In this document: in pieces, positions 11,279-31,035 of the stretch
Layout of the letters: each line of letters opens with the position of its first letter
How positions within the stretch are numbered: the first letter of the stretch is position 1
Source: a virus
Virus record (IMG/VR): IMGVR_UViG_3300021085_000130
Location: 1-31,035 of that record
Strand: one strand, 5' to 3'
DNA length: 31,035 bases
The notes under the pieces: generated by a model
What the model saw: only the letters and a program-made list of their open reading frames with translations
Database searches by the model: none
What the model was told of the DNA's origin: nothing
Translations under genes and position numbers: made by a program

Positions 11279-11290
11279 AATGATTAGGAC

Positions 11291-12103: not shown

Positions 12104-12120
12104 CAGTATACCATGATATT

Positions 12121-12130
12121 TATTTATAAC
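12121..12130 (+). promoter_or_regulatory. Candidate late promoter TATTTATAAC
   Basis: TATTTATAAC differs from the recurrent TATTTATAAT only in the last base. It lies in the 55-base gap between two fibre genes, 28 bases before the next ATG. Confidence 0.45.
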
Positions 12131-12158
12131 TAACGACAACTAAAAACATCAATAAGAA

Positions 12159-15100: not shown

Positions 15101-15506
15101 AGCTAATGAAACTACAGTTGCAGTAAGTGCAACAGATACAGTTACTATTGGATTACCAGATGATGTAACAATTGGTGGAGCTTTAACAGTAACAGGTGAC
15201 TTAACTGTAACAGGTAATACGATAGAGCAACAAGTAACTAACTTGAATGTAGAAGATCAATTTATACTTCTTAACTCAGGTAGTGCAGCACAAGATGCCG
15301 GATTTGTTGTAAATGGTCAAGGAGCAGCATTAGGATGGGATGAATCAGAAAATAGATTCGCTTTAGACTTTGCAGGAGCAACTTGGAACCAAACATCAAT
15401 TACATCAGATGCATACATTGCAGCAGTAGTAACATCGGAAGATGCTAATTATGCTAAAAATGGAAACATTAGAATAGACGGAGAAGATATTTACATATAC
15501 TCATAA
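12159..15506 (+). CDS. Long repetitive Ser/Thr/Ala-rich fibre protein
   Basis: 1115 residues of low-complexity, repeat-based sequence. Six copies of Gly-Asn-Ile-His-(Ser/Ala)-(Phe/Tyr)-Thr-Ala-Ser alternate with Leu-Met-Ala-Phe-Thr-Ala-Ser-Ala-Ala-Arg and Ser-Ala-Gln-Ile-Ala-x-(Asp/Glu)-Ile-Ser-Gly blocks; the spacing suggests a trimeric coiled-coil or beta-helical shaft. Two copies of a Val-x-Gly-Asp-(Phe/Leu)-Thr-Val-(Ser/Thr)-Gly domain occur (near residues 415-490 and 1010-1085). A His-Asn-Phe-Asn ... Val-Tyr-Glu-Asp-Asp-Tyr domain (~730-780) recurs in the 15801 gene. The N-terminus (Trp-Lys-Lys-Ile-Val-Val-Ser-Gly-Ser) is also shared with that gene, suggesting a common attachment point. 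ATG context is AATAAGAA, with no Shine-Dalgarno. Most likely a tail fibre shaft protein. Confidence 0.75.
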   Translation: MATWKKIVVSGSNISQLANDSNYLASSGQGILSSSAQIATDISGSITATSASLATSITTEANNVDVVQSHVGNIHSFTASIDGEVTSLMAFTASAARGSAISGSSTALSASLATRITTEENNVDVAQAHIGNIHSFTASADSEISALMAFTASAARNVAISGSSTALSASLATRVTDQETFSSSLDATFATEAELLTVSQSLSASIAPDITTNKNNITSLDGEVTSLMAFTGSAARNVAISGSFTSTSASLAAAIANISTDFDDITNKPTLLSSSAQIATDISGSVTSTSASLAGSITTNTNNLSVQTAHVGNIHAFTASADGEISALMAATASRDAHIGNIHAFTASADSEISSLMAFTASAARDTAISGAITSTSASLATSITANAVDIDDLETFSSSVNSAFTLSGADVTVKGDFTVSGTTTTVDSTTVDISDNIIQLNGTGATKGGLAVNDVTAPDTNSGSLLWDGTNDYWVAGPTGSEVQIALREGHGILSSSAQIASEISGSITATSASLASDITSGNAAGTVNAAAIVAINTFTGSADGEITALMAATASRDSHIGNIHAYTASSDAEITALMAFTGSSARNTAISGAFTSTSASLASDIAGMSVDFNIAGTTGTDVVTVGTDTLTFANGGGITSAVTNNTVTLDVVDAVISGSFTSTSASIATDVAALTAFSSSIESTIYSYTGSFAGDGSSLTNITVDQNATVTSSFTSVTTASITHNFNSDNILVTVYEDDYQIVPSAIFTKTADVVEIHFGSATTGRAVVARGGHIVSGSIPFSNLTALPALVSASAQIATDISGALSNTAIAALGAGIISSSAQIDSDLFDIDGLVSSSAQVVANLAGSDVVSGSAQIAADISGSITATSASLASSITSNTNTTTALDGEVTNLMAATASRDAHIGNIHAFTASIDSEVTSLMAFTASAARNVAISGSSTALSASIASDIAGISTTFIVSDGSTTQDIDSGNTLTFSGTANETTVAVSATDTVTIGLPDDVTIGGALTVTGDLTVTGNTIEQQVTNLNVEDQFILLNSGSAAQDAGFVVNGQGAALGWDESENRFALDFAGATWNQTSITSDAYIAAVVTSEDANYAKNGNIRIDGEDIYIYS

Positions 15507-15512
15507 TAAGAA

Positions 15513-15716
15513 ATGTTTAAAAGGTTATTAATGGCAATAAAAGGTAAAAGAAACATAGGAAGAGGAGCAAAACAATCAGCCTCCTCTTCTATATTCTTAA
15601 AATCAGAAGCTCTATTTATAGGGCAAAAGCTTCAACAAGCAAATTACAAAGGAGAAGAATTTGAGATTTATCAAAAGATAATGCTTAAGTTAAAACAGTT
15701 GATAGATAAGGGATAA
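15513..15716 (+). CDS. Small basic protein of unknown function
   Basis: 67 residues, rich in Lys and Arg, especially residues 3-20 (Lys-Arg-Leu-Leu-Met-Ala-Ile-Lys-Gly-Lys-Arg). A likely helix-forming C-terminus follows (Tyr-Gln-Lys-Ile-Met-Leu-Lys-Leu-Lys-Gln-Leu-Ile). It follows the long fibre gene after six bases, and its start has the same AATAAGAAATG context as that gene. Uninterrupted reading frame, operon spacing and shared start context support it being real. Its base and amino acid composition differ sharply from the Ser/Thr-rich fibres on both sides. A small chaperone, fibre-assembly helper or nucleic-acid-binding protein are all possible; none is shown. Confidence 0.6.
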   Translation: MFKRLLMAIKGKRNIGRGAKQSASSSIFLKSEALFIGQKLQQANYKGEEFEIYQKIMLKLKQLIDKG

Positions 15717-15723
15717 GTTCCTA

Positions 15724-15733
15724 TATTTATAAT
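15724..15733 (+). promoter_or_regulatory. Candidate late promoter TATTTATAAT
   Basis: Exact copy of the recurrent decamer, 8 bases after the small basic gene and 67 bases before the next ATG. It ends in TATAAT. Confidence 0.5.
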
Positions 15734-15748
15734 AAAGCTAATTATCGG

Positions 15749-15776
15749 CCTCGTAAGAGGAAGTGGGCTCTTAGAG
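15749..15776 (+). promoter_or_regulatory. Structured 5' leader with alternative hairpins
   Basis: CCTC-GTAA-GAGG (15749-15760) forms a small hairpin. The CTCGTAAGAG strand (15750-15759) can instead pair with CTCTTA-GAG (15768-15776) with one bulge. The two pairings exclude each other. The element sits between the candidate promoter at 15724 and the start at 15801 and is unusually GC-rich for an intergenic stretch here. Regulatory function is conjecture. Confidence 0.3.
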
Positions 15777-15800
15777 TAACCAACCGTAAATAGAAGTAAC

Positions 15801-17255
15801 ATGCCAAATTGGAAGAAACTAATAGTTAGTGGTTCAGACGCTAGCTTATCTACATTAACGATTACAAATAGTGGATCAACAGACGATTCATTATTACTTA
15901 CAGCTACAGAAGATTCTTCAACAGCAGCACCAGTAGCTACATTCAAAAGAAATTCAAGTTCACCAGGAGATGCAGATTACCTTGGACAATTAAAGTTCAA
16001 AGGAGAGAATGATGCTGACCAAGAAGTAGTATATGCTAAGATAACAGCAAAGATACAAGATGCTTCAGATGGTTCAGAAGATGGACTTATAGAATTTGCA
16101 AATAAAAAAGCAGGTTCAAACAATATAACGGCTAGATTAAGGTCGGACAAATTACAATTAATCAATGGTACAGAGTTAGAAGTAGATGGTCAAGTATCAG
16201 CATCTTCATTTATAGGAGACGGTTCTGGTTTAACAGGTTTAGTATCTGGTACTACTAATTATGTTCCAATATATGATTCTTCTGGAATAACTGAAAGTCT
16301 TATTTCACAATCGACATATGGAGAAGAGAATGATACGCAAGTTGTCATTGCTGCACAAAGAACATTCATAAACTCTCAAGTAGTTACAACTACTTATTCA
16401 TCCCCAAGTGGAACTGCATTAAGATTAGGTGGTATTGGGAATACAAATGAAATTAGAATTGAAGGTGCAGATATTGAATCAGCAACTGATGCAGCTAAGA
16501 AAATTTTAACTGTTGGCCAAGATGGACAAATACATACTGCTGATGGAAATGAAAGTATATCAGGGTCTTTCTCTGGATCTTTTATAGGAGATGGTTCTGG
16601 TTTAACAGGTTTAGTCACAACTATACAAAGTTCATCAACAGCAGCTGATTCATTCACTTCAGCAACCACACATTCAGTAAGTCATAACTTAGGTACTTTA
16701 TCCCCTTTTGTTCAAGTATATGATGATAACAACGAATTGTTTATACCAACAAAAGTAAAAGTAGTAAATAGTGACACGGTTACTATATTTATGGATCCTG
16801 CAACATCAGGTAAAGTTACTATAGCAGATGCCGGTCATATAATTTCCGGTTCTGGAGATTATAGTTTACTAATTAACACTCCATCAGGTATAGTATCTGG
16901 AGCTGCACAAACTGTTGCTCATTTACCAACTAATACAGTATCAGGTTCAGCTCAAGTAGTATCACTTTTAAGTGGACAAAATTTAACTTTAGGAGAAGTT
17001 TCAGCATCTAAAATACACACAACAGTTGTAAGTTCATCTATTGCATTTTCTTCAGGTTCAAATATTTTTGGAGATGAATTAACCGATGTTCATCAAATAA
17101 CCGGCAGTTTAAACGTAACTGGTTCAGCTAATTTAGTAGCTTCACAATCAGTAAATACAAGAGATGACTCATCTTTAGGTATGTGGGCAGGATCACAAGC
17201 ACAATATGATGCTTTGGGATCATATAATTCGAACACAATTTATTTCGTAACATAA
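15801..17255 (+). CDS. Tail fibre / fibre-tip protein
   Basis: 484 residues. The N-terminus (Asn-Trp-Lys-Lys-Leu-Ile-Val-Ser-Gly-Ser) matches that of the 1115-residue fibre, suggesting the same attachment site. The phage-fibre motif Phe-Ile-Gly-Asp-Gly-Ser-Gly-Leu-Thr-Gly-Leu-Val appears twice (near 137 and 262). A Ser-Val-Ser-His-Asn-Leu-Gly ... Val-Tyr-Asp-Asp-Asn ... Ala-Gly-His-Ile domain (~290-350) is shared with the 12159 gene. The C-terminus, Met-Trp-Ala-Gly-Ser-Gln-Ala-Gln-Tyr-Asp-Ala ... Asn-Thr-Ile-Tyr-Phe-Val, resembles a short tip motif common at the end of phage fibre proteins. Five bases separate it from the next gene. A structural fibre role is well supported; receptor is unknown. 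Confidence 0.7.
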   Translation: MPNWKKLIVSGSDASLSTLTITNSGSTDDSLLLTATEDSSTAAPVATFKRNSSSPGDADYLGQLKFKGENDADQEVVYAKITAKIQDASDGSEDGLIEFANKKAGSNNITARLRSDKLQLINGTELEVDGQVSASSFIGDGSGLTGLVSGTTNYVPIYDSSGITESLISQSTYGEENDTQVVIAAQRTFINSQVVTTTYSSPSGTALRLGGIGNTNEIRIEGADIESATDAAKKILTVGQDGQIHTADGNESISGSFSGSFIGDGSGLTGLVTTIQSSSTAADSFTSATTHSVSHNLGTLSPFVQVYDDNNELFIPTKVKVVNSDTVTIFMDPATSGKVTIADAGHIISGSGDYSLLINTPSGIVSGAAQTVAHLPTNTVSGSAQVVSLLSGQNLTLGEVSASKIHTTVVSSSIAFSSGSNIFGDELTDVHQITGSLNVTGSANLVASQSVNTRDDSSLGMWAGSQAQYDALGSYNSNTIYFVT

Positions 17256-17259
17256 TAGT

Positions 17260-18342
17260 ATGGCACCGTTATATCTAGGAGATACAGCAATATCAAAAAT
17301 ATACAAAGGTACTACTGAACTAGCTCAAAACTATTTAGGTGATAGTGCTATGCTATCTACAGGCCCTACAGGTACAGATCATTTTGGTATTATTACATAT
17401 ACAGGAGATAGACCAACTAATGCCGGTAAAACTGGAATGGGATTCCAGCCTGATTTAGTATGGATTAAAGGTAGGTCGTATGATGACTTTCATAGTATAT
17501 TAGATTCAACAAGAGGGGCTAATGTATTATCACCTGATCATCATATGCAAGAATCTAGCTTCAGTGGATTTACTTTTGACAGTGACGGATTTACAGTAGG
17601 TTCAAGTGGTCAAGCTAACTCAAATGGAGAAACTTTAGTAGCATGGGGATGGAAAGCTAATGGAGGTAGTACTTCATCAAATGGAAACGGTTCTATAACA
17701 TCAACAGTACAAGCAAATACTACTGCAGGATTTAGTATAGTTACTTATACAGGTAATAACGCAGGTAGTGCTACTATAGGACATGGATTAGATTCAGCAC
17801 CCCAACTTATTTTCGTTAAAGGTAGAAATGTAAGTGCAGGTTGGCCTACTATGTTTAATGATGGTAGTTATTCTAACTATGGTATAAGATTGAATCAATC
17901 AGGAGTAGATCTTAATAACCAAACAGTATTTTTTAATAATACAGCACCAACAGATTCAGTATTCTCTGTAGGTAGTGCTGATGAAGTAAATGATGGATAC
18001 AATTATGTAGCTTATTGTTGGCATTCAGTAGCTGGTTATTCTAAGGTAGGATCCTATACAGGTACAGGAAATATAGGTCTTACAGAAAGTTTAGGATTCC
18101 AAGCTAGGTTTATAATGGTTAAAAAAGTAGCTCCAAGTGGTGATAGATGGCTAATGGCGGATACATCAAGACATGCAGCTACAAACAACGATGCATTTTT
18201 AGATGCAACATCAACTTTATCAGAAAGAGATTTTAACTGTACCAATGGAATAACATTTGGTTCTGACAGTTTTACAATTAACACGACAGACGGTTCATTT
18301 AATACTTCTGGCGGTACATATATTTACCTAGCATTCGCATAA
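17260..18342 (+). CDS. Fibre-associated protein with three DUF7483-like repeats
   Basis: 360 residues. The N-terminus has two short Tyr-Leu-Gly-Asp units (residues 5-30), a pattern seen in phage fibre proteins. Three copies of a ~100-residue domain follow, at about 41-134, 157-257 and 260-360. Copies one and two carry Thr-Tyr-Thr-Gly ... (Gln-Pro-Asp-Leu-Val-Trp-Ile-Lys-Gly-Arg / Ala-Pro-Gln-Leu-Ile-Phe-Val-Lys-Gly-Arg) ... Asp-Gly-Phe-Thr-Val-Gly; the third is more diverged (Ala-Arg-Phe-Ile-Met-Val-Lys-Lys). The pattern resembles the DUF7483 family that is frequent in marine phage structural proteins; I recall this rather than aligned it. It lies five bases after a fibre gene and before the S74 fibre, so it is probably a distal fibre or lectin-like component. 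Confidence 0.7.
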   Translation: MAPLYLGDTAISKIYKGTTELAQNYLGDSAMLSTGPTGTDHFGIITYTGDRPTNAGKTGMGFQPDLVWIKGRSYDDFHSILDSTRGANVLSPDHHMQESSFSGFTFDSDGFTVGSSGQANSNGETLVAWGWKANGGSTSSNGNGSITSTVQANTTAGFSIVTYTGNNAGSATIGHGLDSAPQLIFVKGRNVSAGWPTMFNDGSYSNYGIRLNQSGVDLNNQTVFFNNTAPTDSVFSVGSADEVNDGYNYVAYCWHSVAGYSKVGSYTGTGNIGLTESLGFQARFIMVKKVAPSGDRWLMADTSRHAATNNDAFLDATSTLSERDFNCTNGITFGSDSFTINTTDGSFNTSGGTYIYLAFA

Positions 18343-18401: not shown

Positions 18402-19529
18402 ATGAAAATACAAAAGCCAATAATATCCCAGCCTACTATTACGGCTCCTACTATTACGGATTTAGCTTCTTTAGAAGGGGATGGAGCAAATATAACTGGG
18501 TCTTTTTCTGGTTCATTTGATGCATCAGCTTTTGATAGCCCAGGATTAGGTATAGTTTCTGCATCTGCTCAAGTAGTTGGACATTTACCAACGGGAACAG
18601 TATCAGGTTCAGCTCAAACAGTAGCAAACTTACCAGCAGGAACAGTATCAGGATCAGCACAAATTTTAGCAGGTACTAGCATAGTATCAGCATCATCTAT
18701 AGCTACAACAGCTCAAGGTGAAGTACAACTTACAACCAACGGAGTAGCAGCTACAGCTGTTGACTTAGGGTTGAAAACAGATGATAATGTAGAATTTGCA
18801 AACGTAACAGTAACAGGTGATTTATCTGTAACAGGTACAACCACATCAGTAAATTCAAATACATTAAACATTGGAGACAATATTATATCGTTAAACGGAA
18901 CTGCAGCTACTAAAGGTGGTTTAGCAGTTAACGATGCAACAGGTACTACTACTAGTGGTTCTCTATTATGGGATGGCACTAATGACTATTGGGTAGCAGG
19001 ACCAACAGGATCAGAAGTAAAAATAGCATTAACTGAAGGAGATAGTTTAGTATCTGCATCAGCTTTATCATCAACAGCACAAGGTGAAGTAACTCTAACA
19101 ACTAACGGAGTAGCAGCATCAGCAACAGACTTAGGATTACAAACATCAGATGATGTTCAGTTTGATAGCTTTGGAGTTGGTACAGCAGCATCTGGTACAA
19201 CAGGAGAGATTAGAGCAACAGGTGATATTACAGCATACTATTCATCAGATGAAAGACTTAAGGAGAACTTTACTCCACTAGCAGGAGCTTTAGATAAAGT
19301 AAAAGCAATTGGTGGATATGAGTTTGATTGGAAAGATGGTATCGAAGACGTTGTTAGTAAAACAGGTCACGATATTGGAGTTAAAGCACAAGAGCTGCAA
19401 GTACAATATCCAGAATTAGTTCATGAGAGAGATAATGGATATTTAGCAGTTGATTATATTAAATTAAATGCAGTATTAATTGAAGCAGTAAAAGAATTAG
19501 CTGCAAAAGTAGAAGAATTAAGTAAATAA
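18402..19529 (+). CDS. Tail fibre with C-terminal S74 intramolecular chaperone
   Basis: 375 residues. The N-terminal part has repeated Gly-Thr-Val-Ser-Gly-Ser-Ala-Gln units. Residues ~135-213 repeat a module of the 12159 fibre (Val-Thr-Gly-Asp-Leu-Ser-Val-Thr-Gly-Thr-Thr ... Leu-Leu-Trp-Asp-Gly-Thr-Asn-Asp-Tyr-Trp). Residues ~281-375 are a peptidase S74 / endosialidase-type chaperone: Ser-Asp-Glu-Arg-Leu-Lys-Glu-Asn (282-289), a Gly-Val-Lys-Ala-Gln-Glu-Leu ... Pro-Glu-Leu-Val block, and a C-terminal helix for trimerisation. In this family a Ser and a Lys five residues on form the cleavage dyad; here they are Ser282 and Lys287, so release of the ~94-residue chaperone after trimer folding is expected. 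The mature protein would be a trimeric receptor-binding or tip fibre. Confidence 0.88.
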   Translation: MKIQKPIISQPTITAPTITDLASLEGDGANITGSFSGSFDASAFDSPGLGIVSASAQVVGHLPTGTVSGSAQTVANLPAGTVSGSAQILAGTSIVSASSIATTAQGEVQLTTNGVAATAVDLGLKTDDNVEFANVTVTGDLSVTGTTTSVNSNTLNIGDNIISLNGTAATKGGLAVNDATGTTTSGSLLWDGTNDYWVAGPTGSEVKIALTEGDSLVSASALSSTAQGEVTLTTNGVAASATDLGLQTSDDVQFDSFGVGTAASGTTGEIRATGDITAYYSSDERLKENFTPLAGALDKVKAIGGYEFDWKDGIEDVVSKTGHDIGVKAQELQVQYPELVHERDNGYLAVDYIKLNAVLIEAVKELAAKVEELSK

Positions 19530-20559: not shown

Positions 20560-21414
20560 TTGAATACATATTGGGTTTACGAAAATATACAGGAACGGGT
20601 ATCTTTCTATAACAAGTTAGATACTCTCTTATTGTTATCTTCCGTCTACTTATGGAAGAAACACCATCCATCTTATACTACCAATCTTTCGGTAGATAAA
20701 CTTACATACGAATACTTACACAACCTTAATGGATTATACTTATGGGACAATGTAGAGATACTACCAAAGAATAAGTCAATCAATAAAGGAGTGTTCTGGG
20801 CATCAGCTAAACTAGAAAAGTTAAGGTATATCAAAGGCCCAGCTATAATGATGGATCATGATTTTCTTATTTATAAGAATATTGATAAATACCTAAACGA
20901 ACAACCTTTCTTTGCTCATGAAGAAAATGGAGATCAATATTACGATACTTCATGGAATCCTTTTATACAGCAAATTAGTCACATAGTTAACAGACCTAAA
21001 CCTCATGCTATTAACTGTTGTTTTGAATACTTTCCAGATAGTAACTTTACAAATAACTATGCTAAAACTAGTATAGAGTTAATGCAAAAATTTACAGAAC
21101 TAAAAGTACCTAATTCTAGGTTTTTAATATTTGCAGAACAATTACTGTTAAAACACTTATTAGACTTTCATAATATAGAATATGATACCTTACTTAACGA
21201 AAAATGGAATGCGAAAGGTAAATACTATGAGCAAAGCGATAAAGGTCATATGTCATTTGTAGAGAGCAATACTACGTATAGGCATTACTGGATGGATAAA
21301 CCTTTAATAAGAAAAAACAAAGAAGGGTTTAATCTTGAAGGAGAAATCACTATATTGTTAAATATACTAAAACGTACAGAAGTTAATTTAGACTATATTA
21401 ACAATGCTCTTTAA
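20560..21414 (+). CDS. Glycosyltransferase-like protein (possibly DUF6734-like)
   Basis: 284 residues from a TTG start; no in-frame ATG exists between the upstream stop (20542-20544) and residue 91. The N-terminus Asn-Thr-Tyr-Trp-Val-Tyr-Glu-Asn resembles GT-A-type proteins of the DUF6734 sort found in Bacteroidota. Supporting landmarks: Val-Phe-Trp-Ala-Ser-Ala-Lys-Leu, then Ala-Ile-Met-Met-Asp-His-Asp-Phe-Leu (about 88-96) as a DxD-like metal/nucleotide-sugar site, Ala-Glu-Gln near 198, and a late Tyr-Arg-His-Tyr-Trp. It is the first gene of the enzyme operon and overlaps the methyltransferase start by 11 bases. Sugar donor and acceptor cannot be told. The call is by fold-level resemblance. 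Confidence 0.5.
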   Translation: MNTYWVYENIQERVSFYNKLDTLLLLSSVYLWKKHHPSYTTNLSVDKLTYEYLHNLNGLYLWDNVEILPKNKSINKGVFWASAKLEKLRYIKGPAIMMDHDFLIYKNIDKYLNEQPFFAHEENGDQYYDTSWNPFIQQISHIVNRPKPHAINCCFEYFPDSNFTNNYAKTSIELMQKFTELKVPNSRFLIFAEQLLLKHLLDFHNIEYDTLLNEKWNAKGKYYEQSDKGHMSFVESNTTYRHYWMDKPLIRKNKEGFNLEGEITILLNILKRTEVNLDYINNAL

Positions 21415-22132
21415 TTTAGAATACATAAAGAACTACTTAACCAATAACAAAGACAAACCAGTAAGTTATAGGTGGACTCATGGTGCTACTGATTTACATT
21501 TAGGAGACGGATTACTTATTTACTCAATAATACAGTTTATGAGAGCCAAAGTATGTGTATGCTTAGGTTCAGGAGGTGGATTTATACCACGTATAATGAC
21601 TCAAGCAAGAGTAGACTTATATGATTCAGGTATATTTGAAGGTAATCGTGATTACAATTGGGGTGATATAGGTAGTACCTACATAGTTGATGCGGCTAAT
21701 GAAGTTGGTGGTGAAGTTAACTGGTTAAAGAAAGACTCATTTTTTAGAGAAAACTTTTATCCAAGGATTATCAATGAAACTACTGAAGATGCATACTATA
21801 ACTTTTTTGTAAAAGAAGATATTAAAATTGACTATCTACATATTGATGCTGGACATACATATGATGACGTAAAACTAGATTTTGAACTATACACTAAGTT
21901 ACTGTCTAAAAACGGAGTAGTATCAATACATGATACAGATATAAAATATGCAGATAACTATATTATTTCAAAAGATATATCAGATAAAGATGCTCATGCA
22001 AAATTTGCAGAAGGTCCTTCAAAGTTTATAAAGGAAATACCTAAAAAATGGCAAAGATTTGATTTCTTTAATACAGGTATTTTACCAGAAAAACCAAGTT
22101 CTACAGGACTAACAATTTTAAGACATGCCTAA
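21404..22132 (+). CDS. Class I SAM-dependent methyltransferase
   Basis: 242 residues. Motif I is Val-Cys-Leu-Gly-Ser-Gly-Gly-Gly-Phe (about 51-59), the glycine-rich S-adenosylmethionine loop. A Leu-His-Ile-Asp-Ala-Gly-His-Thr-Tyr-Asp-Asp-Val (146-157) segment followed by Gly-Val-Val-Ser-Ile-His-Asp-Thr-Asp is characteristic of the Methyltransf_24 / CmcI-like group, which often methylates sugars or hydroxylated small molecules. A cephalosporin-hydroxylase-like annotation would be an alternative label for the same fold. It overlaps the preceding glycosyltransferase-like gene by 11 bases and the next by 8, so the three are probably made together. That context suggests sugar O-methylation during glycan building. 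Confidence 0.8.
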   Translation: MLFNLEYIKNYLTNNKDKPVSYRWTHGATDLHLGDGLLIYSIIQFMRAKVCVCLGSGGGFIPRIMTQARVDLYDSGIFEGNRDYNWGDIGSTYIVDAANEVGGEVNWLKKDSFFRENFYPRIINETTEDAYYNFFVKEDIKIDYLHIDAGHTYDDVKLDFELYTKLLSKNGVVSIHDTDIKYADNYIISKDISDKDAHAKFAEGPSKFIKEIPKKWQRFDFFNTGILPEKPSSTGLTILRHA

Positions 22133-22964
22133 CCTAGTAACAGTAGTAGGTGAGAATACCCATATTCTCCCTCATATGTTAAAACATTACGAAAACCAGA
22201 TTGATAAAGCTTATGTTGCTGTATATAGACAAAGTGAGGATGACGGTATATTAGAAGAAATAGAAGAATTAGGGATTACTCCTTTTATGGTTTTTACAGA
22301 ACCTAAATATAACTGGCATAGAGTAACAGAAATATACAACTCAGTAAAAGAAACAAAACCAAACGATTGGTGGATAGTATCAGACGATGACGAATTACAA
22401 GTATACCCAGAACCTATAGAGAGTATCATTGAGAAGTGTGAGAGAAGTGGATATGACTTTGTGACAGGAGGTTTCTTAGATAGGATAGGTATAGATGGCA
22501 TATTTCCTGAAGTAACGAGAGATACAATTATTCATGAAGCTTTTCCTTTAGCTGGTTTCTTTAGATACCCTATGAGTAAAGCATGTCCAAATAAAGTAAC
22601 ATTAATGAAAGGACATCAACAAATTACATCTGGTCAACATTATGCCACATTTGCTGACGGTACTAACAGTTGGGGTAAATCACATCCTAAGAGAATGCCT
22701 ATACAAGAGGTATTTACTCAAGTTCATCATTTCAAATGGGATAAGACATGTGTAGATAGAATAAAGAAAGTAGCAGATAATGCAAAAGACTATTCATTTT
22801 CAGATGAATATAGAATAATGTATCATGCTATTAGGAAATCTAATTGGAAAATAGATGTTAAAAATCCTTTGTATTTAGTTGAGAATCTGAGGGATTTTAC
22901 CTATATTAATTATAATGACTATAGCAAATGGTCAAGTATAACAGATAAAATAGTTACAATATGA
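22125..22964 (+). CDS. GT-A fold glycosyltransferase (family 2-like)
   Basis: 279 residues. An N-terminal Val-Thr-Val-Val-Gly-Glu-Asn ... Leu-Pro-His-Met-Leu-Lys-His-Tyr opening and Trp-Trp-Ile-Val-Ser-Asp-Asp-Asp-Glu-Leu-Gln-Val-Tyr-Pro (about 82-95) give the Rossmann-like start and acidic metal site of a Glyco_tranf_2_4-type enzyme, where Asp-Asp-Asp-Glu should bind metal and the nucleotide sugar. A later His-His-Phe-Lys-Trp-Asp (about 203-208) fits the C-terminal part of such enzymes. No membrane segment is visible, so it would act in the cytosol. It overlaps the methyltransferase by 8 bases and the following small gene by 4 (ATGA). Confidence 0.75.
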   Translation: MPNLVTVVGENTHILPHMLKHYENQIDKAYVAVYRQSEDDGILEEIEELGITPFMVFTEPKYNWHRVTEIYNSVKETKPNDWWIVSDDDELQVYPEPIESIIEKCERSGYDFVTGGFLDRIGIDGIFPEVTRDTIIHEAFPLAGFFRYPMSKACPNKVTLMKGHQQITSGQHYATFADGTNSWGKSHPKRMPIQEVFTQVHHFKWDKTCVDRIKKVADNAKDYSFSDEYRIMYHAIRKSNWKIDVKNPLYLVENLRDFTYINYNDYSKWSSITDKIVTI

Positions 22965-23173
22965 CAGAATCAGAGTACAGAATTAAGAAAATAGAGCTAG
23001 AAGAAGCTAAAGTAAAGCATTTAGAAAAACTAGCTACCTGCGTAGATATACTTACACTGTGGTTTGAAGAGATAGATAAGGAAGATTGGGACAACAGAAT
23101 GCAATTTTACCTTAATGAATTTCATAGAGCAGTAGTTCCAACAAAAGACGATGAAGAAGAGGTAAATGAGTAG
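22961..23173 (+). CDS. Small acidic helical protein of unknown function
   Basis: 70 residues, largely helical and charged: Lys-Lys-Ile-Glu-Leu-Glu-Glu-Ala-Lys-Val-Lys-His-Leu-Glu-Lys near the start, then a hydrophobic/aromatic helix (Asp-Ile-Leu-Thr-Leu-Trp-Phe-Glu-Glu-Ile) and an acidic tail ending Asp-Asp-Glu-Glu-Glu-Val-Asn-Glu. It starts within the stop of the glycosyltransferase (ATGA) and overlaps the GT7 gene by 8 bases, so translational coupling supports it as real. Size and coiled-coil look suit a partner or stabiliser of a neighbouring enzyme, but that is a guess. Confidence 0.7.
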   Translation: MTESEYRIKKIELEEAKVKHLEKLATCVDILTLWFEEIDKEDWDNRMQFYLNEFHRAVVPTKDDEEEVNE

Positions 23174-24680
23174 AAAAAAGCTTGGTATTATTGTTCCGTA
23201 TAGAGACAGACCAGGTCAACTTAGATCATTTATAAAAGGAATTGGAGATTACTTTGCTACTACCGTTAAAAACTTTAGACCCTATATTTTTGTAGTAGAA
23301 CAGAAAGACACTAAAGACTTTAATAGAGGTAAGCTACTAAACGTAGGTTTCTTAAAAGCAGAAGAGTTTGGTTGTGATTACGTAGTGTTTCATGATATAG
23401 ATATGTTACCTTACAATGTTGACTATTCATTTAGTGAAACTCCTTTACAACTTGCTAATAAGTTTGATGCAACAGAGCAGTTTACACGTACTATCAATGA
23501 CGACTACTTTGGAGGTGTTACATTATTTTCAGTAGATGCATTCAGAAAGATAAACGGCTATTCTAATAAGTATAGAGGTTGGGGGTTTGAGGATAATGAC
23601 CTTTTGTATAGGTGTGAAAAAAATGGTATTAAACTAGATGAACAGGTTTATAGGAGTTATTCTGAAAACGGTAAAACTATTTCATTTAACGGTAAGAATT
23701 CACATATTAAGATACCTAATAACTATACCTATGCTCGTCCATTAACATTTTATGCTTCTTTTTACCCTAGTGATATAAAGTGTGATAAAGATGAAATAAC
23801 AGATGAGTATGCAGTGTTTGCAGTACCAGGTGAAGATTTAAATTTATCTTATAACTCTTTTAGAACATATAAATTTGAAGCCTTTCTTAGTAGTAATGAA
23901 GCAGTATCAGTTACATCTAAAACTTTACCTAACATGCCTTGTAGAGCTGTTGTTACTGTAGACTCTAGAAACAAAGAAATATATTTTTATTTAAACGGTA
24001 TTAAGATTGGTAAGAATAGATGGGAAAAATACGGTATAAAAAAGTATAATACTGAACCTTACTTTTATTTAGGAGTAGGTAATCCGAAAAGAAAACTCAA
24101 ACAAAAGTGGTTTAAAGGTAATATAGATGAATTTGCAACTTTTAATAGAATACTAACAGAAGAAGAAATAAGAGATATATCTACTAAAATATCAGGAAAG
24201 TTAACAGATAATATCAGAAGATACAAACCAGATGATAGTCTTATAGGTTATTATAGAGCAGATACTACTCAAGAAGTTAAAGTAGAAACTTCCAAGTCAA
24301 ATATTGGAGGTAGGTATAATGAATTAGATACAGAATTGCAGTTAGTAGATTTATCTGGTAAAAATAACCACGGTAGCATACATAACTGTAAAATAATAGA
24401 AAATAAACATCAAGCTAGTACTAAAATTAAAATACCTCATAGACGTAGAGGTAAGTATAAATTAATACCTCATGAAGAACAGGGGTATACACTTGGATAT
24501 TGGAAGAATTGGAAAAGTAGAATAAATCAGCTTAGATACTACGAGATTATCAATAGCGGTAAAGAAGAGTATTTAGAAGATGGACTTTCATCATGTAGAT
24601 ACAAGGTATTAGATGAATACGATCATTTTTTAGGAGCTAATTATAAAATAGATACTAAAGTTATATCAATAAGGTCATAA
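23166..24680 (+). CDS. GT7 galactosyltransferase-like enzyme with inserted LamG-like domain
   Basis: 504 residues. Residues 5-160 match the N half of beta-1,4-galactosyltransferase-type (GT7) enzymes: Val-Pro-Tyr-Arg-Asp-Arg, Phe-Asn-Arg-Gly-Lys-Leu-Leu-Asn-Val-Gly-Phe (52-62), metal motif His-Asp-Ile-Asp (76-79), Tyr-Phe-Gly-Gly-Val (114-118) and Gly-Trp-Gly-Phe-Glu-Asp-Asn-Asp (138-145). Residues ~168-410 are a concanavalin/LamG-like beta domain (Ser-Phe-Asn-Gly-Lys-Asn ... Tyr-Phe-Tyr-Leu-Asn-Gly ... Phe-Lys-Gly-Asn-Ile-Asp-Glu-Phe). The GT7 C-terminus then resumes at ~424: Leu-Ile-Pro-His (433-436), corresponding to the metal-binding Met-x-x-His region, and Asp-Gly-Leu-Ser-Ser-Cys-Arg-Tyr-Lys-Val-Leu (472-482), matching the mammalian Asp-Gly-Leu-Asn-Ser-Leu. 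No transmembrane anchor is seen. The next gene is a paralogue; overlap is one base. Confidence 0.85.
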   Translation: MSRKKLGIIVPYRDRPGQLRSFIKGIGDYFATTVKNFRPYIFVVEQKDTKDFNRGKLLNVGFLKAEEFGCDYVVFHDIDMLPYNVDYSFSETPLQLANKFDATEQFTRTINDDYFGGVTLFSVDAFRKINGYSNKYRGWGFEDNDLLYRCEKNGIKLDEQVYRSYSENGKTISFNGKNSHIKIPNNYTYARPLTFYASFYPSDIKCDKDEITDEYAVFAVPGEDLNLSYNSFRTYKFEAFLSSNEAVSVTSKTLPNMPCRAVVTVDSRNKEIYFYLNGIKIGKNRWEKYGIKKYNTEPYFYLGVGNPKRKLKQKWFKGNIDEFATFNRILTEEEIRDISTKISGKLTDNIRRYKPDDSLIGYYRADTTQEVKVETSKSNIGGRYNELDTELQLVDLSGKNNHGSIHNCKIIENKHQASTKIKIPHRRRGKYKLIPHEEQGYTLGYWKNWKSRINQLRYYEIINSGKEEYLEDGLSSCRYKVLDEYDHFLGANYKIDTKVISIRS

Positions 24681-26095
24681 TGAAACATAAGTTAGGAGTA
24701 TGTGTACCATACAGAAATAGAGAATTACATCTACATGAGTTTATACCCAAGGTAGGTAAATACCTGAAAGAACAAGGTATTGATTTCTGTATGTATTTTT
24801 GTCATCAAGTAGATGATAAATTATTCAATAGAGGTGCTACAAAAAATATAGCTGCTAAACATGCATTTGAAGATGGATGTGACTATATAGTATGGCATGA
24901 TATAGATATGATACCAGAAGATGGTGCTGACTATTCATACCCAGAAAAAGCTCCTAGACACATAGCTACTCAAATCCAGCAGATGGATTATGAATTAAAA
25001 TACCATGAATACTTTGGTGGTGCAGTGTTATTCACAAAAGAACAAGTTGAAGCAACTAATGGATATTCTAACGATTACTGGGACTGGGGTATGGAAGATG
25101 ATGATTTATTTTGGAGATGTCACTTAGAGGGGTTAACAAATGATACATATCTACCAGGAGAATTAAAAAATCAAAAATACCTATCTTTTAATGGTAAAAA
25201 TGCTTATGCTAAAATACCTTTTCAAAGAGAGTATAGAGGTTTAACAACTAGGTCTCATACTATTTCAGCTTTAGTTAGATGTTACCAACAGCCAGAAAAA
25301 AATGATGTATTTTTAATAGGTGCAGATAAAAGAAAATATGTTGAATACCCTATATTAAGATTACCAGGTTATGACTATGGTCTATCTTTTAATAATTCAA
25401 GAGCTTTATCATTTACTTTTTGGAATAGTTTCAACAAACACAATTACATGTGGTTAAAAAGGTACGATAAGCAATGGAGTTGGGTTACTACAGTATTAAA
25501 CACAGAAGATAGATTAGCTCATTTTTACCTTAACGGTACAGAGGTAGATTCTAAGGTAGGATTAGGTAGTCCTTCTCCTCTGAGATTTACAGGTAAGTTA
25601 AAAAGTTACGGTACTAATGATTTTTATTTAGGTACTAGTCCTTCAGAACCAGAAGAAAGTTCAGTAAAGTTTTTTAAAGGTGATGTTGCTAAGGTATATG
25701 CGTGGAACAGAGCATTAACACCTAACGAAGTTTCTAATCTACATACAGACATACCTACTGAAGGTAATATTGTTAATTTAGACTTTAAAGACCCAAAAGT
25801 ACCATTTACACCATTTGGTTGTGAAGAAAAAGTAGAAGATATCAGAATACCTAACTCAATTATACCCCATAGGGTAGAGGGTAGAATGAGATGTCTTCCT
25901 CATGAAGATGAAGGAATAGTAGACGGTAAGTTTAAAAAAGGTGAAACGACAGCTAGAAACGAAAGAAGATATATTCTTGAAATGCAAAAAGGAAGCTGGG
26001 ACTATAAAGGTGATGGTATTAAACAACTTAAATATGAACTAGTAGGGGAGAAAGAATTTACTCCTTGGGCTAAAATGATAGATATCAAATTATGA
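24680..26095 (+). CDS. Second GT7 galactosyltransferase-like enzyme with inserted LamG-like domain
   Basis: 471 residues, a paralogue of the gene before it with the same split order. GT7 N half (residues 4-160): Val-Pro-Tyr-Arg-Asn-Arg, Phe-Asn-Arg-Gly (49-52), His-Asp-Ile-Asp (73-76), Tyr-Phe-Gly-Gly (111-114), Trp-Gly-Met-Glu-Asp-Asp-Asp (136-142). LamG-like insert (about 165-375) with Ser-Phe-Asn-Gly-Lys-Asn, Phe-Tyr-Leu-Asn-Gly and Phe-Lys-Gly-Asp-Val. GT7 C-terminus from ~397: Arg-Met-Arg-Cys-Leu-Pro-His (402-408), then Gly-Asp-Gly-Ile-Lys-Gln-Leu-Lys-Tyr (444-452). The two proteins differ clearly outside motifs, so the duplication is not recent. The residue before Leu-Pro-His is Cys where vertebrate enzymes have a metal-binding Met. 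It overlaps the radical SAM start by four bases. Confidence 0.85.
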   Translation: MKHKLGVCVPYRNRELHLHEFIPKVGKYLKEQGIDFCMYFCHQVDDKLFNRGATKNIAAKHAFEDGCDYIVWHDIDMIPEDGADYSYPEKAPRHIATQIQQMDYELKYHEYFGGAVLFTKEQVEATNGYSNDYWDWGMEDDDLFWRCHLEGLTNDTYLPGELKNQKYLSFNGKNAYAKIPFQREYRGLTTRSHTISALVRCYQQPEKNDVFLIGADKRKYVEYPILRLPGYDYGLSFNNSRALSFTFWNSFNKHNYMWLKRYDKQWSWVTTVLNTEDRLAHFYLNGTEVDSKVGLGSPSPLRFTGKLKSYGTNDFYLGTSPSEPEESSVKFFKGDVAKVYAWNRALTPNEVSNLHTDIPTEGNIVNLDFKDPKVPFTPFGCEEKVEDIRIPNSIIPHRVEGRMRCLPHEDEGIVDGKFKKGETTARNERRYILEMQKGSWDYKGDGIKQLKYELVGEKEFTPWAKMIDIKL

Positions 26096-27477
26096 ATCCT
26101 GCAGAAGTAAAAAAGAAACTTGATAAGGTAGGGTGTGGTTTTTGTTTAGCTAAATGGACACAAGTTACATTGCATCTTGGTACCGGTATGACTCATTCAT
26201 GTCACCATCCATCTCCTCACAAGATACCACTAAGTGAGTTGAAACGTAACCCAACTGCACTACACAATACCAATTTTAAAAAGACTAGAAGAAAAGAAAT
26301 GCTTGAAGGTAAAAGACCTGAAGAGTGTAATTACTGTTGGAATGTAGAAGATAATTCAACATCATTTTCAGATAGAGTATTTAAATCAACAGAACCTTGG
26401 TCATTAGAAGAATTTGATAAGATTAAAGACAGTTATTGGAGAGAAGATTTCAATCCACGTTATGTAGAAGTTTCTTTTGGTAATGCATGTAATTTTGCCT
26501 GTGCTTACTGTGGACCACAATACTCATCTAAATGGGTAGAAGAAATTGAAAAACATGGAGGTTATGATACAACTCATAAATTTAACTCCATAGATGATAT
26601 CAAGGCAAGAGATCAAATGCCATATAAACAGAGAGAACATAATCCATATGTTGAAGCTTTTTGGAAATGGTGGCCTGATTTATATAAAGACCTACATACG
26701 TTTAGAATGACTGGTGGAGAACCTTTAATGTCTAAAGATGTGTTTAGAGTATTAGAGTACATACAAGAAAATTGGGAACAAAATCCTAACATATCATTAG
26801 CTATTAACACTAATTTAGGAGTACCAGATAAGTTAGTTGATAAATTTATAGCTATAGCAAAAGATTTATGTGAGAATAATAAAGTAAGAGAGTTAATTAT
26901 TTTTACTTCTGTTGAAGCAACAGGTTCTCAAGCTGAATATACAAGGTACGGATTAAAATATGATAAATTCTGGTTAAATGTAGATAAGATTCTTACTGAA
27001 CTACCTAGAGTTACTATTAACGTAATGGCAACCTTTAATGCATTATCTGTTTTTACATACGGAGATTTAATAGATAGAACCTTTGAAGCAAAAAAGAAAC
27101 ATGCTAACGGATTAAGATATTGGACATCCGCAATACAACTTGATACGTCTTACTTAAGATGGCCTACATTTCTTTCAGTAAAAATATTACCAGAAGAACA
27201 TAAAGAGTTAATATTAGATGCAGCAAAGAAAGCTCTTTACTACGGCATAAAGACTTTTACTCACGATAATTATGGTTTTTCAAATATTGAAATCCAAAAA
27301 ATGAAAAGATTATATGACTATGCAATAGGTACATCAGATTTTAATATTACTAAATTTAGAAAAGACTTTGTAAAGTTTGTTGATGAATATGATGACAGAA
27401 GGAATTTAAACTTTAGTGAAACATTTCCTGAGTTAATGCCAATGTATAACGAAACAAAAGAGACACTAAATGATTAA
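26092..27477 (+). CDS. Radical SAM protein (twitch-type, marine phage kind)
   Basis: 461 residues. The radical SAM cluster motif CxxxCxxC is Cys133, Cys137 and Cys140 (Cys-Asn-Phe-Ala-Cys-Ala-Tyr-Cys), and Gly-Gly-Glu-Pro (208-211) is the SAM-binding motif. An N-terminal domain with Cys18, Cys37 (in Ser-Cys-His-His-Pro), Cys79 and Cys82 (in Glu-Cys-Asn-Tyr-Cys-Trp) looks like a twitch-type auxiliary iron-sulfur site; such N-terminal-twitch enzymes recur in phages. A barrel half follows and the C-terminus ends with an Asp-Arg-Arg ... Phe-Pro-Glu-Leu motif shared with the 28072 gene. It should cleave SAM to a 5'-deoxyadenosyl radical; substrate is unknown. ATGA overlap with the GT7 gene before and 8-base overlap after suggest a shared pathway. 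Confidence 0.85.
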   Translation: MNPAEVKKKLDKVGCGFCLAKWTQVTLHLGTGMTHSCHHPSPHKIPLSELKRNPTALHNTNFKKTRRKEMLEGKRPEECNYCWNVEDNSTSFSDRVFKSTEPWSLEEFDKIKDSYWREDFNPRYVEVSFGNACNFACAYCGPQYSSKWVEEIEKHGGYDTTHKFNSIDDIKARDQMPYKQREHNPYVEAFWKWWPDLYKDLHTFRMTGGEPLMSKDVFRVLEYIQENWEQNPNISLAINTNLGVPDKLVDKFIAIAKDLCENNKVRELIIFTSVEATGSQAEYTRYGLKYDKFWLNVDKILTELPRVTINVMATFNALSVFTYGDLIDRTFEAKKKHANGLRYWTSAIQLDTSYLRWPTFLSVKILPEEHKELILDAAKKALYYGIKTFTHDNYGFSNIEIQKMKRLYDYAIGTSDFNITKFRKDFVKFVDEYDDRRNLNFSETFPELMPMYNETKETLND

Positions 27478-28072
27478 CATACCAATAGATGATGTTTGGG
27501 TTCTTTGGCCTACTACTATTTGCTCTTCTTTTCCGGAAGATCCTGGCAATTTGTACCTCAATGGTAAAAAACATTTTAAGTTAGAATTAGATTTTGAACT
27601 TACTGATGAAACAGACCACTATAAAGCTATCTTTAATATACTACCAGCATACACTATGTTAAAGCTTCTGAGAGATAGAATGATATTTGTTGCTTCATTT
27701 GACGACGGTACTAAAGAAGATCATAACCTACCACTTTTTGTTACCCCACACGAAAGGATATTTCTTAGTTACGAATTTGAACCAGATCAGGATATAAAAC
27801 TATTTATTAGAAATAACACTACAGGTAACGAGATTGATTTTAAAATTAATATGGAAGGTAGAAACTTCAAATATGAAGCTGAACCTTTTATAGTACTTGC
27901 TGGTGATAATATACCCGAACGTTCAGACAAAGAACACTTTACCGGTGTTACTTTTCACGAACTAAAGTTATACAGTAACGAAAGGTTGTTATCCCACCAT
28001 ACATTTGACGAATTCATTCATGATAAATCTGTAGATAAAACAGGCAATTGTAACTTTATACATAAATTTTAA
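27470..28072 (+). CDS. Stand-alone concanavalin/LamG-like protein
   Basis: 200 residues, beta-rich. The second half shows the ending typical of LamG-like domains: Phe-Ile-Val-Leu-Ala-Gly-Asp-Asn (140-147), then Phe-Thr-Gly-Val-Thr-Phe-His-Glu-Leu-Lys-Leu-Tyr-Ser-Asn-Glu-Arg-Leu (157-173), close to Phe-Lys-Gly-x-Ile-Asp-Glu of the inserts in the two GT7 genes. An earlier strand, Leu-Tyr-Leu-Asn-Gly-Lys-Lys (28-34), matches the Asn-Gly-Lys start of those inserts. There is no catalytic residue pattern. It lies between two radical SAM genes, coupled to both. It may bind glycans or hold a carbohydrate or peptide substrate. The fold call is by resemblance; identity is low. Confidence 0.5.
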   Translation: MINIPIDDVWVLWPTTICSSFPEDPGNLYLNGKKHFKLELDFELTDETDHYKAIFNILPAYTMLKLLRDRMIFVASFDDGTKEDHNLPLFVTPHERIFLSYEFEPDQDIKLFIRNNTTGNEIDFKINMEGRNFKYEAEPFIVLAGDNIPERSDKEHFTGVTFHELKLYSNERLLSHHTFDEFIHDKSVDKTGNCNFIHKF

Positions 28073-29694
28073 TGGGAGTATACGCAAAAAAACCTAATGA
28101 AACTCATCAAGAGTATAGGGACCGAGTTATAGATAAACTATCTCCTTCATTCTGTGGAGCTAAATGGTATAATGCTACTATATGGCTAGGTAACGGTCAG
28201 ACAACATCTTGTCATCACCCTCCAGCTCATAAGATACCTTTAGATGAACTAAAGTTTAGTTATAAAGCACTTCACAATACTAAGTACAAGAAGGCTGTAC
28301 GTAAGCAGATGATGGAAGGTATTAGACCTAAAGAATGTGAATATTGCTGGAAGATAGAAGATTTAGGTAAAGATAAAGTTTCTGATAGAGTTTATAAATC
28401 AGTTATATACACAGATGAGGAATTAAAAGATGCTAAAGAAGTGATGGGATATACAGAAGATGTAGATCTTAAAACTTTAGAAATAGCTTTTGATGCTAAT
28501 TGTAACTTTGGTTGTTCATACTGTAATGCATCTTTTAGTACTACTTGGCAGAAAGACATTAAAGTTAATGGTCCTTATCAAAATTTAGTATCTGATGGAG
28601 CAGCAGCATTTCAACACGATGGTTCTCATGCTATGCCATACGGTAGGAAGAACACAGATAATCCATACATAGAAGCATTTTGGAAATGGTGGGAAGCAGA
28701 ACTACAATTTAGCTTAAGAGAATTAAGAGTAACAGGAGGAGAACCTTCTATGTCTCCAGACTTCTGGAAACTAATGGAATGGTGGAAGAAAAACCCTGAT
28801 TGTAAAGTACCATTTGCAGTCAATTCAAACCTAGGTCAGAAAAAGAAACTTTTAGATGCATTAATTGAATCTTCTAAGAGTTTTAAAGATTTTAGTATTT
28901 ACACATCTTGTGAAGCAGTTGGTCTTCAAGCAGAGTATATTAGGTTTGGATTAGAGTGGGATGTTTGGTTAAAGAATATGTATAGGGTAAATCAAGAAGG
29001 TAATATCAAGACAGTCAACGTTATGATGACTATTAATGCTTTGTGTTTGTTTTCTATTACTGAGTTTATGGATGAAATGATGAAGATTAAAAAGAAATTC
29101 GGATATAAGGCAGCAGTTATGTCGTTTAATATCTTACGTTTTCCATCTTTTCAGTCTATTGTTACATTACCAAAAAATATTAGATTAGAAAGAGCAGCAG
29201 CAATGGAAGCTTGGCTTGATAAAAATTGGAACAATGGTCAAAATGGGTTTATAGATATAGAAAGAGATGCACTATTAAGACTTATTGAATATACAAAATC
29301 AGTTGATAAAGGACATGAATTTACTTCATCTATAGATACGAGAGAAAGAGACTTTAGATCTTTTTACCTACAATACGATAAAAGAAGAGGTAAAGATTTT
29401 TATGCTGCATTTCCAACCCTTAAAACTTGGTTTGACGGTATACCTGAGACTAACTTACAACCTCTCACAAAGGTGGTAGATGGTGATGATGCTAAGTCTA
29501 ATAGGTATGTAGACGGTGTATTAGAACAAGCTAAAGATGAAGGATGGATACTTAACCCACAATGGGCTAATCCAGGAGCACAAGATTTTATAGAACCGGA
29601 TGACCAACAACAAGATGATATGATTGATCTAGTAGAACAATTACAAGCAGATTCAGATAAAACATATGCAGGCAGTCAAGTTAAAAAGATATGA
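28072..29694 (+). CDS. Second radical SAM protein (twitch-type, marine phage kind)
   Basis: 540 residues, paralogue of the 26092 gene. Cluster motif Cys144-Asn-Phe-Gly-Cys148-Ser-Tyr-Cys151 and Gly-Gly-Glu-Pro at 222-225. Same N-terminal domain with Cys28, Cys47 (Ser-Cys-His-His-Pro-Pro-Ala-His-Lys), Cys89 and Cys92 (Glu-Cys-Glu-Tyr-Cys-Trp). The C-terminal core repeats Asp-Phe-Arg-Ser-Phe ... Tyr-Asp-Lys-Arg-Arg-Gly. A tail of about 80 further residues, Gln- and Asp-rich with Asp-Gln-Gln-Gln-Asp-Asp, is absent from the first paralogue and could be a docking segment. It starts in a TAATG overlap with the LamG-like gene and ends in an ATGA overlap with the third radical SAM gene. Substrate is unknown. 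Confidence 0.85.
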   Translation: MGVYAKKPNETHQEYRDRVIDKLSPSFCGAKWYNATIWLGNGQTTSCHHPPAHKIPLDELKFSYKALHNTKYKKAVRKQMMEGIRPKECEYCWKIEDLGKDKVSDRVYKSVIYTDEELKDAKEVMGYTEDVDLKTLEIAFDANCNFGCSYCNASFSTTWQKDIKVNGPYQNLVSDGAAAFQHDGSHAMPYGRKNTDNPYIEAFWKWWEAELQFSLRELRVTGGEPSMSPDFWKLMEWWKKNPDCKVPFAVNSNLGQKKKLLDALIESSKSFKDFSIYTSCEAVGLQAEYIRFGLEWDVWLKNMYRVNQEGNIKTVNVMMTINALCLFSITEFMDEMMKIKKKFGYKAAVMSFNILRFPSFQSIVTLPKNIRLERAAAMEAWLDKNWNNGQNGFIDIERDALLRLIEYTKSVDKGHEFTSSIDTRERDFRSFYLQYDKRRGKDFYAAFPTLKTWFDGIPETNLQPLTKVVDGDDAKSNRYVDGVLEQAKDEGWILNPQWANPGAQDFIEPDDQQQDDMIDLVEQLQADSDKTYAGSQVKKI

Positions 29695-31035
29695 AGGTAA
29701 AACCAAAAGATGGGAATAAAACATTTTGTATGGCCCCGTGGTCCCATACCTACTTATCACCTCAAAGTGAAAGAAGAATGTGCTGTGCTTCAAGAGAAAA
29801 AGCTGAATGGGCTACACAATACCTAGATTCAGATAAAGCAGAAGAAAATTCATTTTACAACCCAGGTAAGTTAGAAGATCATTGGAACTCAGATTATATG
29901 AAAGGTATAAGAAGAGATTTAATGGCTGGTAAAGAGATACCACAATGTCAGGTATGTAATGACCAATTACTTAACGTATCTATCTATAGAGATTACTTCA
30001 ATAAGACTCTATTTCCAAACAAGATAGACGAAGCGTTTGAGAAAACTAGAGATGATGGCCATACTGACATGCCACCTATTTCATTTGACTATAGAGTTAG
30101 GAATTTATGTAACTTTAAATGTAGAATGTGCGGTGATCAATTATCATCATCTTGGGAAGCAGAAAGAAGAGCTATGGGTGACTACGATGCTGAAGATAAC
30201 ACTGACTACTGGGCTCAAAAAAAGAATAAACCAGCAATAGAAAACTTTCAAAAAGATGTTGCAGAAGCTGAATTATGGAAAGCTGTTAAGGACGGTACTA
30301 TTGAAGAAATATATTGGGTAGGTGGTGAACCTCTGATGTGGGAAATACATTGGGAAATTATGCAGTACCTTATAGACAATGACTTAGCTAAAAATGTATG
30401 GATAAGATACAATAGTAACTTTTCTAGATCTAAATACAAACATTGGGACTTAAAAGATATGCTACCTCATTTCAAAATGGTACAAATGTGTGCTTCTATA
30501 GATGGTACTGGTGAGATAGTAGAGTATGTTAGACACGGTATAAAGTGGGATAGTTGGATTGCTAATTTTAAAAACTTTTTATTCCTTAATAAACAGTATG
30601 GTGATTACGGTATAGCTTTTGACTTAACTATAACAACTCCAGGTTTATTTAGTCTAAAAGAATTATTCGATTTAGCATTAGAGTTAGACATACATACACT
30701 GATTAAGACTACTTTTGCTTTTGATAGTAGTATAATGATGTGTCCACAGGTTCTACCAAGAGAACTATTTAACGAAGTAATAGATGATATATTGGACTAC
30801 ATCAGACCTAAGGTAGAAGCTAACCAAAAGTACAATTACTGGATAACCTGTTTAGAGGACCTTAAAAATAGACAAGTATTTTCAGAGCAATACCCAGATT
30901 GGCAAAAAGGTTTAGTACAAGGTAAGGAAAGATTAGCTAAAGTTGATAAATGGAGAAATAACGAAGACATATTAAATAATATTTACCTTAAACACAATAA
31001 AAAAGTTTACGATTGGTGGAACAGCAACATAATAT
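29691..31035 (+). CDS. Third radical SAM protein, partial (runs off the window end)
   Basis: Frame is open from the ATG at 29691 to the end without a stop, so about 448 residues are visible and the C-terminus is missing. Cluster motif Cys140-Asn-Phe-Lys-Cys144-Arg-Met-Cys147, and Tyr-Trp-Val-Gly-Gly-Glu-Pro follows near 205. The N-terminal part is closer to the canonical twitch-type family than its neighbours: Phe-Cys-Met-Ala-Pro-Trp-Ser-His (12-19), Met-Cys-Cys-Ala-Ser (30-34) and Gln-Cys-Gln-Val-Cys-Asn-Asp (85-91). It thus differs from the Ser-Cys-His-His-Pro pair upstream and may act on another substrate. ATGA coupling places it in the same operon. Confidence 0.83.
   Translation, partial: MKVKPKDGNKTFCMAPWSHTYLSPQSERRMCCASREKAEWATQYLDSDKAEENSFYNPGKLEDHWNSDYMKGIRRDLMAGKEIPQCQVCNDQLLNVSIYRDYFNKTLFPNKIDEAFEKTRDDGHTDMPPISFDYRVRNLCNFKCRMCGDQLSSSWEAERRAMGDYDAEDNTDYWAQKKNKPAIENFQKDVAEAELWKAVKDGTIEEIYWVGGEPLMWEIHWEIMQYLIDNDLAKNVWIRYNSNFSRSKYKHWDLKDMLPHFKMVQMCASIDGTGEIVEYVRHGIKWDSWIANFKNFLFLNKQYGDYGIAFDLTITTPGLFSLKELFDLALELDIHTLIKTTFAFDSSIMMCPQVLPRELFNEVIDDILDYIRPKVEANQKYNYWITCLEDLKNRQVFSEQYPDWQKGLVQGKERLAKVDKWRNNEDILNNIYLKHNKKVYDWWNSNII

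Follow-up and report, generated by a model that had tools for sequence, protein, structure and literature searches.

In the GT-A glycosyltransferases GALNT, POMGnT1 and GnT-IVa, a lectin domain lies before or after the enzyme within a single chain (PMC9296478). PGAP4, an animal Golgi GPI-GalNAc transferase, has a GT-A fold that is split by a pair of transmembrane segments (PMC5785973). Among viruses, the particle of Aureococcus anophagefferens virus (AaV) contains LamG proteins and a putative beta-1,4-galactosyltransferase (PMC7507832), and pelagimyophages have a host-recognition cluster next to the fibre genes in which glycosyltransferases occur together with radical SAM cassettes, read as altering the host surface (PMC7029224). 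The lectin domains of GT-A enzymes that we found described are at one end of the chain; here we report phage proteins in which a LamG domain almost certainly lies inside the GT7 catalytic domain, nested by the mobile metal loop. Our literature search, which was incomplete because most subscription papers were outside its reach, found no report of a GT7-LamG protein or of a GT7 enzyme with an internal LamG domain.

The sequence under study is a 31 kb fragment of IMG/VR record IMGVR_UViG_3300021085_000130, from an uncultured marine phage; the whole stretch analysed (31,035 nucleotides) is referred to as the window. For the major capsid protein we found a match to T4-like head proteins (PHROG 138) and 67% identity to the major capsid protein of Flavobacterium phage immuto. 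Thus, the host is likely flavobacterial. The fibre module of immuto has no annotated glycosyltransferase cassette, and among cultured phages (INPHARED) no relative was found at E 1e-5, nor any significant match when the GT core alone was the query. The two genes of interest, ORFs A and B, come after a run of fibre-like genes. The fibre-like proteins encoded at window 6149-17255 have repeated segments and 26-30% Ser+Thr, and are possible substrates of the adjoining glycosyl cassette. We also identified genes encoding a DUF7483 protein (17260-18342; E 7e-82), a fibre protein with a C-terminal Peptidase_S74 chaperone domain (18402-19529) and, at the start of the glyco cassette, a DUF6734 protein (20560-21414) that is possibly another glycosyltransferase-like enzyme.

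ORFs A and B are paralogues with 29% identity overall (core 40%, LamG 25%, C-terminus 30%), and have the following features:

23166..24680, plus strand: ORF A, GT7 galactosyltransferase-like with inserted LamG domain, 504 aa (Pfam, AlphaFold2, fold matches)
23166..23636, plus strand: ORF A, GT7 N-terminal part of the catalytic domain, residues 1-157 (Pfam GT7N and GT7C; phmmer to B4GalT7/B4GalT1, E 1e-21)
23394..23402, plus strand: ORF A, metal-binding D-I-D, residues 77-79, equivalent to D-V-D of B4GalT1 (alignment; 99-100% conserved in 79 relatives)
23580..23594, plus strand: ORF A, W-G-F-E-D catalytic motif, residues 139-143 (alignment and conservation)
23655..24413, plus strand: ORF A, inserted LamG/concanavalin-like domain, residues 164-416 (Laminin_G_3, E 2e-9; fold match to pentraxin/PAPP-A/4dqa)
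24426..24677, plus strand: ORF A, GT7 C-terminal part after the insert, residues 421-504, with His436 equivalent to metal-ligand His347 of B4GalT1 (hhalign to insert-free GT7 columns 159-231, E 1.7e-13)
24680..26095, plus strand: ORF B, tandem paralogue with the architecture of ORF A, 471 aa (Pfam, AlphaFold2, fold matches)
24680..25141, plus strand: ORF B, GT7 N-terminal part, residues 1-154, D-I-D at 74-76 (Pfam, sequence search, profile alignment)
25157..25843, plus strand: ORF B, inserted LamG domain, residues 160-388 (Laminin_G_3, E 7e-13; fold match to PAPP-A/pentraxins)
25856..26092, plus strand: ORF B, GT7 C-terminal part, residues 393-471, with metal-ligand His408 (profile alignment)

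A preliminary description of this DNA had proposed that the LamG domain sits within the GT7 catalytic domain of both tandem paralogues, and profile alignments, Pfam, structure prediction and insert-free relatives agree on this. The order it expected from profile searches was recovered in both ORFs: GT7N (A 2-84, B 2-83), then GT7C (A 112-157, B 93-154), then Laminin_G_3 (A 175-335, B 172-352). All of these Pfam matches exceed the curated cut-offs, with GT7N/GT7C scores of 59.8/57.7 bits for A and 62.6/68.1 bits for B (cut-offs 27 and 23). The GT7C match ends at model position 62 of 78 in both ORFs, compared with 77 of 78 in an insert-free planctomycete GT7. In sequence searches of solved structures only residues 2-158 (A) and 2-153 (B) align, to B4GalT7 and B4GalT1. 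An uninterrupted catalytic domain is usual in characterised GT7 enzymes without being defining; here it is interrupted by 208-295 residues, a variant feature.

To follow the GT7 domain across the insert, we compared profiles of the phage segments with ten insert-free bacterial GT7s (hhalign). The N-terminal part aligns with columns 4-160 of the insert-free profile (E 3.7e-68) and the roughly 80 residues after LamG align with columns 159-231 (98% probability, E 1.7e-13); therefore the two halves join in the middle of a normal GT7 domain. The LamG part gave no alignment with this profile. One insert-free bacterial GT7 aligns with B4GalT1 through the His347 region (B4GalT1 numbering) and so places the join, which, counted back from the metal-ligand His, is about 11-16 residues upstream of it. 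When the ORF with LamG excised was searched as a single sequence against the PDB, the match did not run past the join, and the C-terminal profile alone found B4GalT1 ambiguously, at E 0.03 and ranked below unrelated glycoproteins. Because neither search gave a clear PDB match, the insert-free bacterial proteins matter as a bridge, and it is on this sequence bridge that GT7 continuity across the insert rests.

The AlphaFold2 models, built from alignments of 50-55 sequences, are confident throughout for both ORF A (pLDDT 92.8, pTM 0.88) and ORF B (pLDDT 92.1, pTM 0.82), and predict a LamG-like sandwich in the middle of the chain with confident structure after it. Following the insert they have a strand, a long helix and two strands, which agrees with the GT7 C-terminus. 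Foldseek matched the GT part of the models to B4GalT1/7 over about 150-160 columns and the LamG-type part to pentraxin, PAPP-A, 4dqa and sialidase lectin domains. Structure prediction and structural search, the checks suggested in the preliminary description, thus yielded both the middle beta-sandwich and the two expected fold matches. Its placement of the insert near the segment bearing a metal ligand also holds, the join mapping 11-16 residues before that His in beta-1,4-galactosyltransferase. So do the C-terminal GT7 landmarks that it had named, in a segment that profile-matches the GT7 C-terminus. Of 79 non-redundant relatives, 99% retain the His of I/L-P-H (A H436, B H408), and four positions never vary among them: Pro (A424/B396), Arg (A426/B398), Asn (A454/B427) and the Gly of DG (A473/B446).

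The GT7 motifs DxD, YFGG, WGxED and metal-ligand His are all present, in order, in both ORFs. Conservation across the 79 representatives is 97-100% for the metal D-I-D, the Tyr of YFGG, the E-D of WGxED and the metal-ligand His, and 92% for the Trp. Tyr289 of B4GalT1 favours UDP-Gal over UDP-GalNAc, and from the Tyr at this position we infer that ORFs A and B would use UDP-galactose. A third paralogue, class C, lies upstream of the pair in some loci (L083:1881-3335, L089:2429-3889, L078:1965-3422, L070:2856-4340). Here GYGFxD replaces GWGFED, and the catalytic-motif Glu is absent in two, possibly reflecting changed specificity or loss of activity. Given these altered motifs, not every GT7-LamG copy need be active.

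The insert is present in 79/79 non-redundant phage proteins, at 208-295 aa, across three paralogue classes. Its assignment to Laminin_G_3/LamG follows from both the profile match and the predicted beta-sandwich fold. It diverges along with the core, but faster. In class A the conserved LamG positions are mostly fold hallmarks; in class B, invariant polar and aromatic positions are densely clustered in the list (P229-G-Y-D, N238-N-S-R, W248, Y256, W258, K260-R-Y). The C-terminal strand pair, LxGYY...DLSGxxNxG, looked permuted relative to bacterial LamG_3. Pentraxins end in a similar way, and on this likeness a circular permutation was set aside.

The ORF B search returned 174 related stretches, from which 80 loci were kept; the 79 representative proteins are clusters at 75% identity. 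The last two GT7 genes are adjacent in 55/80 loci and apart in 19/80; in 6/80 one GT7 core was recognised, several of these loci lying at the end of a contig, and ten of the 80 carry at least three GT7 genes. A second, overlapping search recovered the GT7-LamG architecture in 168 ORFs. Insert-free GT7s occur in other viruses and in bacteria: a search seeded with them found 109 viral ORFs with LamG and 38 without, and in the latter 38 the C-terminus directly follows the core (gap -6 to 9). A tree built from only the GT residues splits classes A, B and C and does not reject a single origin of the insertion (p-AU 0.52), which is compatible with, and not proof of, one insertion event. The architecture also extends beyond phages. 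A GT7-LamG gene lies beside a GT2-type gene in a 3.4 Mb bacterial genome (L112:3944-5434), and a sister genome (L223) carries a copy of it at 78% identity. The L112 genome gave no Gp23 match, in a search that gave none in controls either. MAG contigs L099-L101 and L115, which also bear the insert, could well be of phage origin.

The GT7-LamG cassette adjoins the tail-fibre genes of this T4-like phage, and its order is conserved: methyltransferase, GT2-like, GT7-LamG A, GT7-LamG B, radical SAM, small LamG-like, more radical SAM. In the window the conserved neighbours are:

21404..22964, plus strand: Methyltransf_24 methyltransferase and GT2-like glycosyltransferase, upstream (in 66/81 and 74/81 loci, respectively)
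26092..27477, plus strand: twitch-domain radical SAM protein, downstream (NCBIfam NF033640, E 4.6e-103; radical SAM in 79/81 loci)
27470..28072, plus strand: small free-standing LamG-like protein (cluster in 27 loci; cluster relatives match the LamG-insert profile weakly, E 7e-5)

Three radical SAM-type genes, all from one cluster, follow one another at window 26092-31034. The first and second match NF033640 (E 5e-103, 6e-93), and the small LamG-like gene sits between these two. Free-standing small LamG proteins at the equivalent place in other loci match the insert profile at E 1e-17. Some loci extend with genes for an NAD epimerase, a dTDP-4-dehydrorhamnose 3,5-epimerase-like protein and a TPP enzyme. 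In one locus a cytidylyltransferase-like gene (137 aa; L056:5588-5998; cluster in 20 loci) lies exactly between the two GT7-LamG genes. None of the gene neighbours directly indicated a substrate.

The further proposal of the preliminary description, that the LamG domain may hold a glycan acceptor in position or govern loop closure, is plausible. The reading that we favour, with a probability of roughly 0.6 as a whole, is an active galactosyltransferase whose LamG domain docks the acceptor. Each ORF would be a metal-dependent, inverting enzyme of the GT7 (beta-1,4-galactosyltransferase) type, with a complete LamG jelly-roll placed between the helix that follows WGxED and the strand bearing the metal-ligand histidine; the simplest history is a single insertion that predates the divergence of the paralogues. 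The LamG domain would hold a growing glycan or glycoprotein beside the active site, and the two to three paralogues could add successive or alternative sugars. Because the cassette is part of a T4-like fibre module, the most likely product is a glycan on the surface of the infected cell or on the fibres of the phage itself.

LamG folds can also have proteins as ligands, or serve in structural contacts only. The main rival, itself rather unlikely, is that the ligand of LamG is a protein, be it fibre, capsid or partner enzyme, and that the domain serves to attach the enzyme to the virion or to a partner from the cassette. It would fit the position of the cassette directly after Ser/Thr-rich (26-30%) fibre genes, the free-standing LamG proteins encoded beside the enzymes, and the packaging of LamG proteins and a putative beta-1,4-galactosyltransferase by AaV (PMC7507832), although AaV is an unrelated virus and its proteins are separate chains. 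A LamG domain that acts as structural filler, stabilising the fold with no ligand of its own, would account for the faster divergence of the insert and for the fold hallmarks that dominate class A conservation. This seems improbable, since the insert is never lost in 79 representatives even though LamG-free GT7s exist, and numerous polar and aromatic positions are invariant in paralogue B. In lactose synthase, alpha-lactalbumin acts on B4GalT1 in trans, and a comparable candidate role for LamG, as an integral specificity subunit in which acceptor binding closes the adjacent metal-histidine loop, is a tentative and doubtful proposal.

Two further explanations concern the architecture itself. 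Single-sequence searches align the N-terminal part only, as a plain tandem fusion of a truncated GT7, a LamG domain and an unrelated C-terminal segment would predict. The C-terminal segment, however, profile-matches the missing GT7 columns (E 1.7e-13), and the same segment comes directly after the core in insert-free GT7s of viruses and bacteria, which largely refutes such a fusion and leaves it very improbable. The contig is metagenomic and could in principle be an assembly chimera or a chance juxtaposition, but this is refuted, since the architecture recurs in 80 related loci drawn from numerous metagenomes, in the ORFs of the overlapping search and in two sister bacterial genomes. The architecture suggests an enzyme with a built-in substrate-docking module, in keeping with the favoured acceptor-docking galactosyltransferase. 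It also points to a glycan pathway that the phage encodes next to its fibre genes and that may change how phage or host surfaces are recognised. Kept across three marine-phage paralogue classes, the nested LamG domain provides a natural experiment on how a glycosyltransferase can be coupled to a binding module.

Compared with known systems, the phage proteins are most like B4GalT1 and B4GalT7 of CAZy family GT7 (PF13733/PF02709), sharing the GT-A fold, D-V/I-D, the donor-selecting Tyr of YFGG, WGxED, the metal-ligand His and the C-terminal helix-hairpin, in order. Unlike those enzymes, they have a LamG domain of 208-295 residues 11-16 residues before the metal-ligand His, and ORFs A and B are phage-encoded and lack a signal anchor or stem. 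The insert resembles Laminin_G_3/pentraxin-like LamG domains (PF13385) in sequence and in predicted fold (PAPP-A, pentraxins, 4dqa, sialidase lectin domains) but is here nested within another domain. As in the pelagimyophage host-recognition cluster, also from T4-like marine phages, a fibre-adjacent island combines glycosyltransferase and radical SAM genes; that report gives GT8 as the most common glycosyltransferase family there, and its available part does not mention GT7-LamG proteins (PMC7029224). GALNT, POMGnT1 and GnT-IVa likewise join a binding domain to a GT-A enzyme in one chain, but theirs is terminal whereas the phage LamG is internal (PMC9296478). PGAP4 shares with the phage proteins a split GT-A fold, in its case divided by transmembrane segments instead of a LamG domain (PMC5785973).
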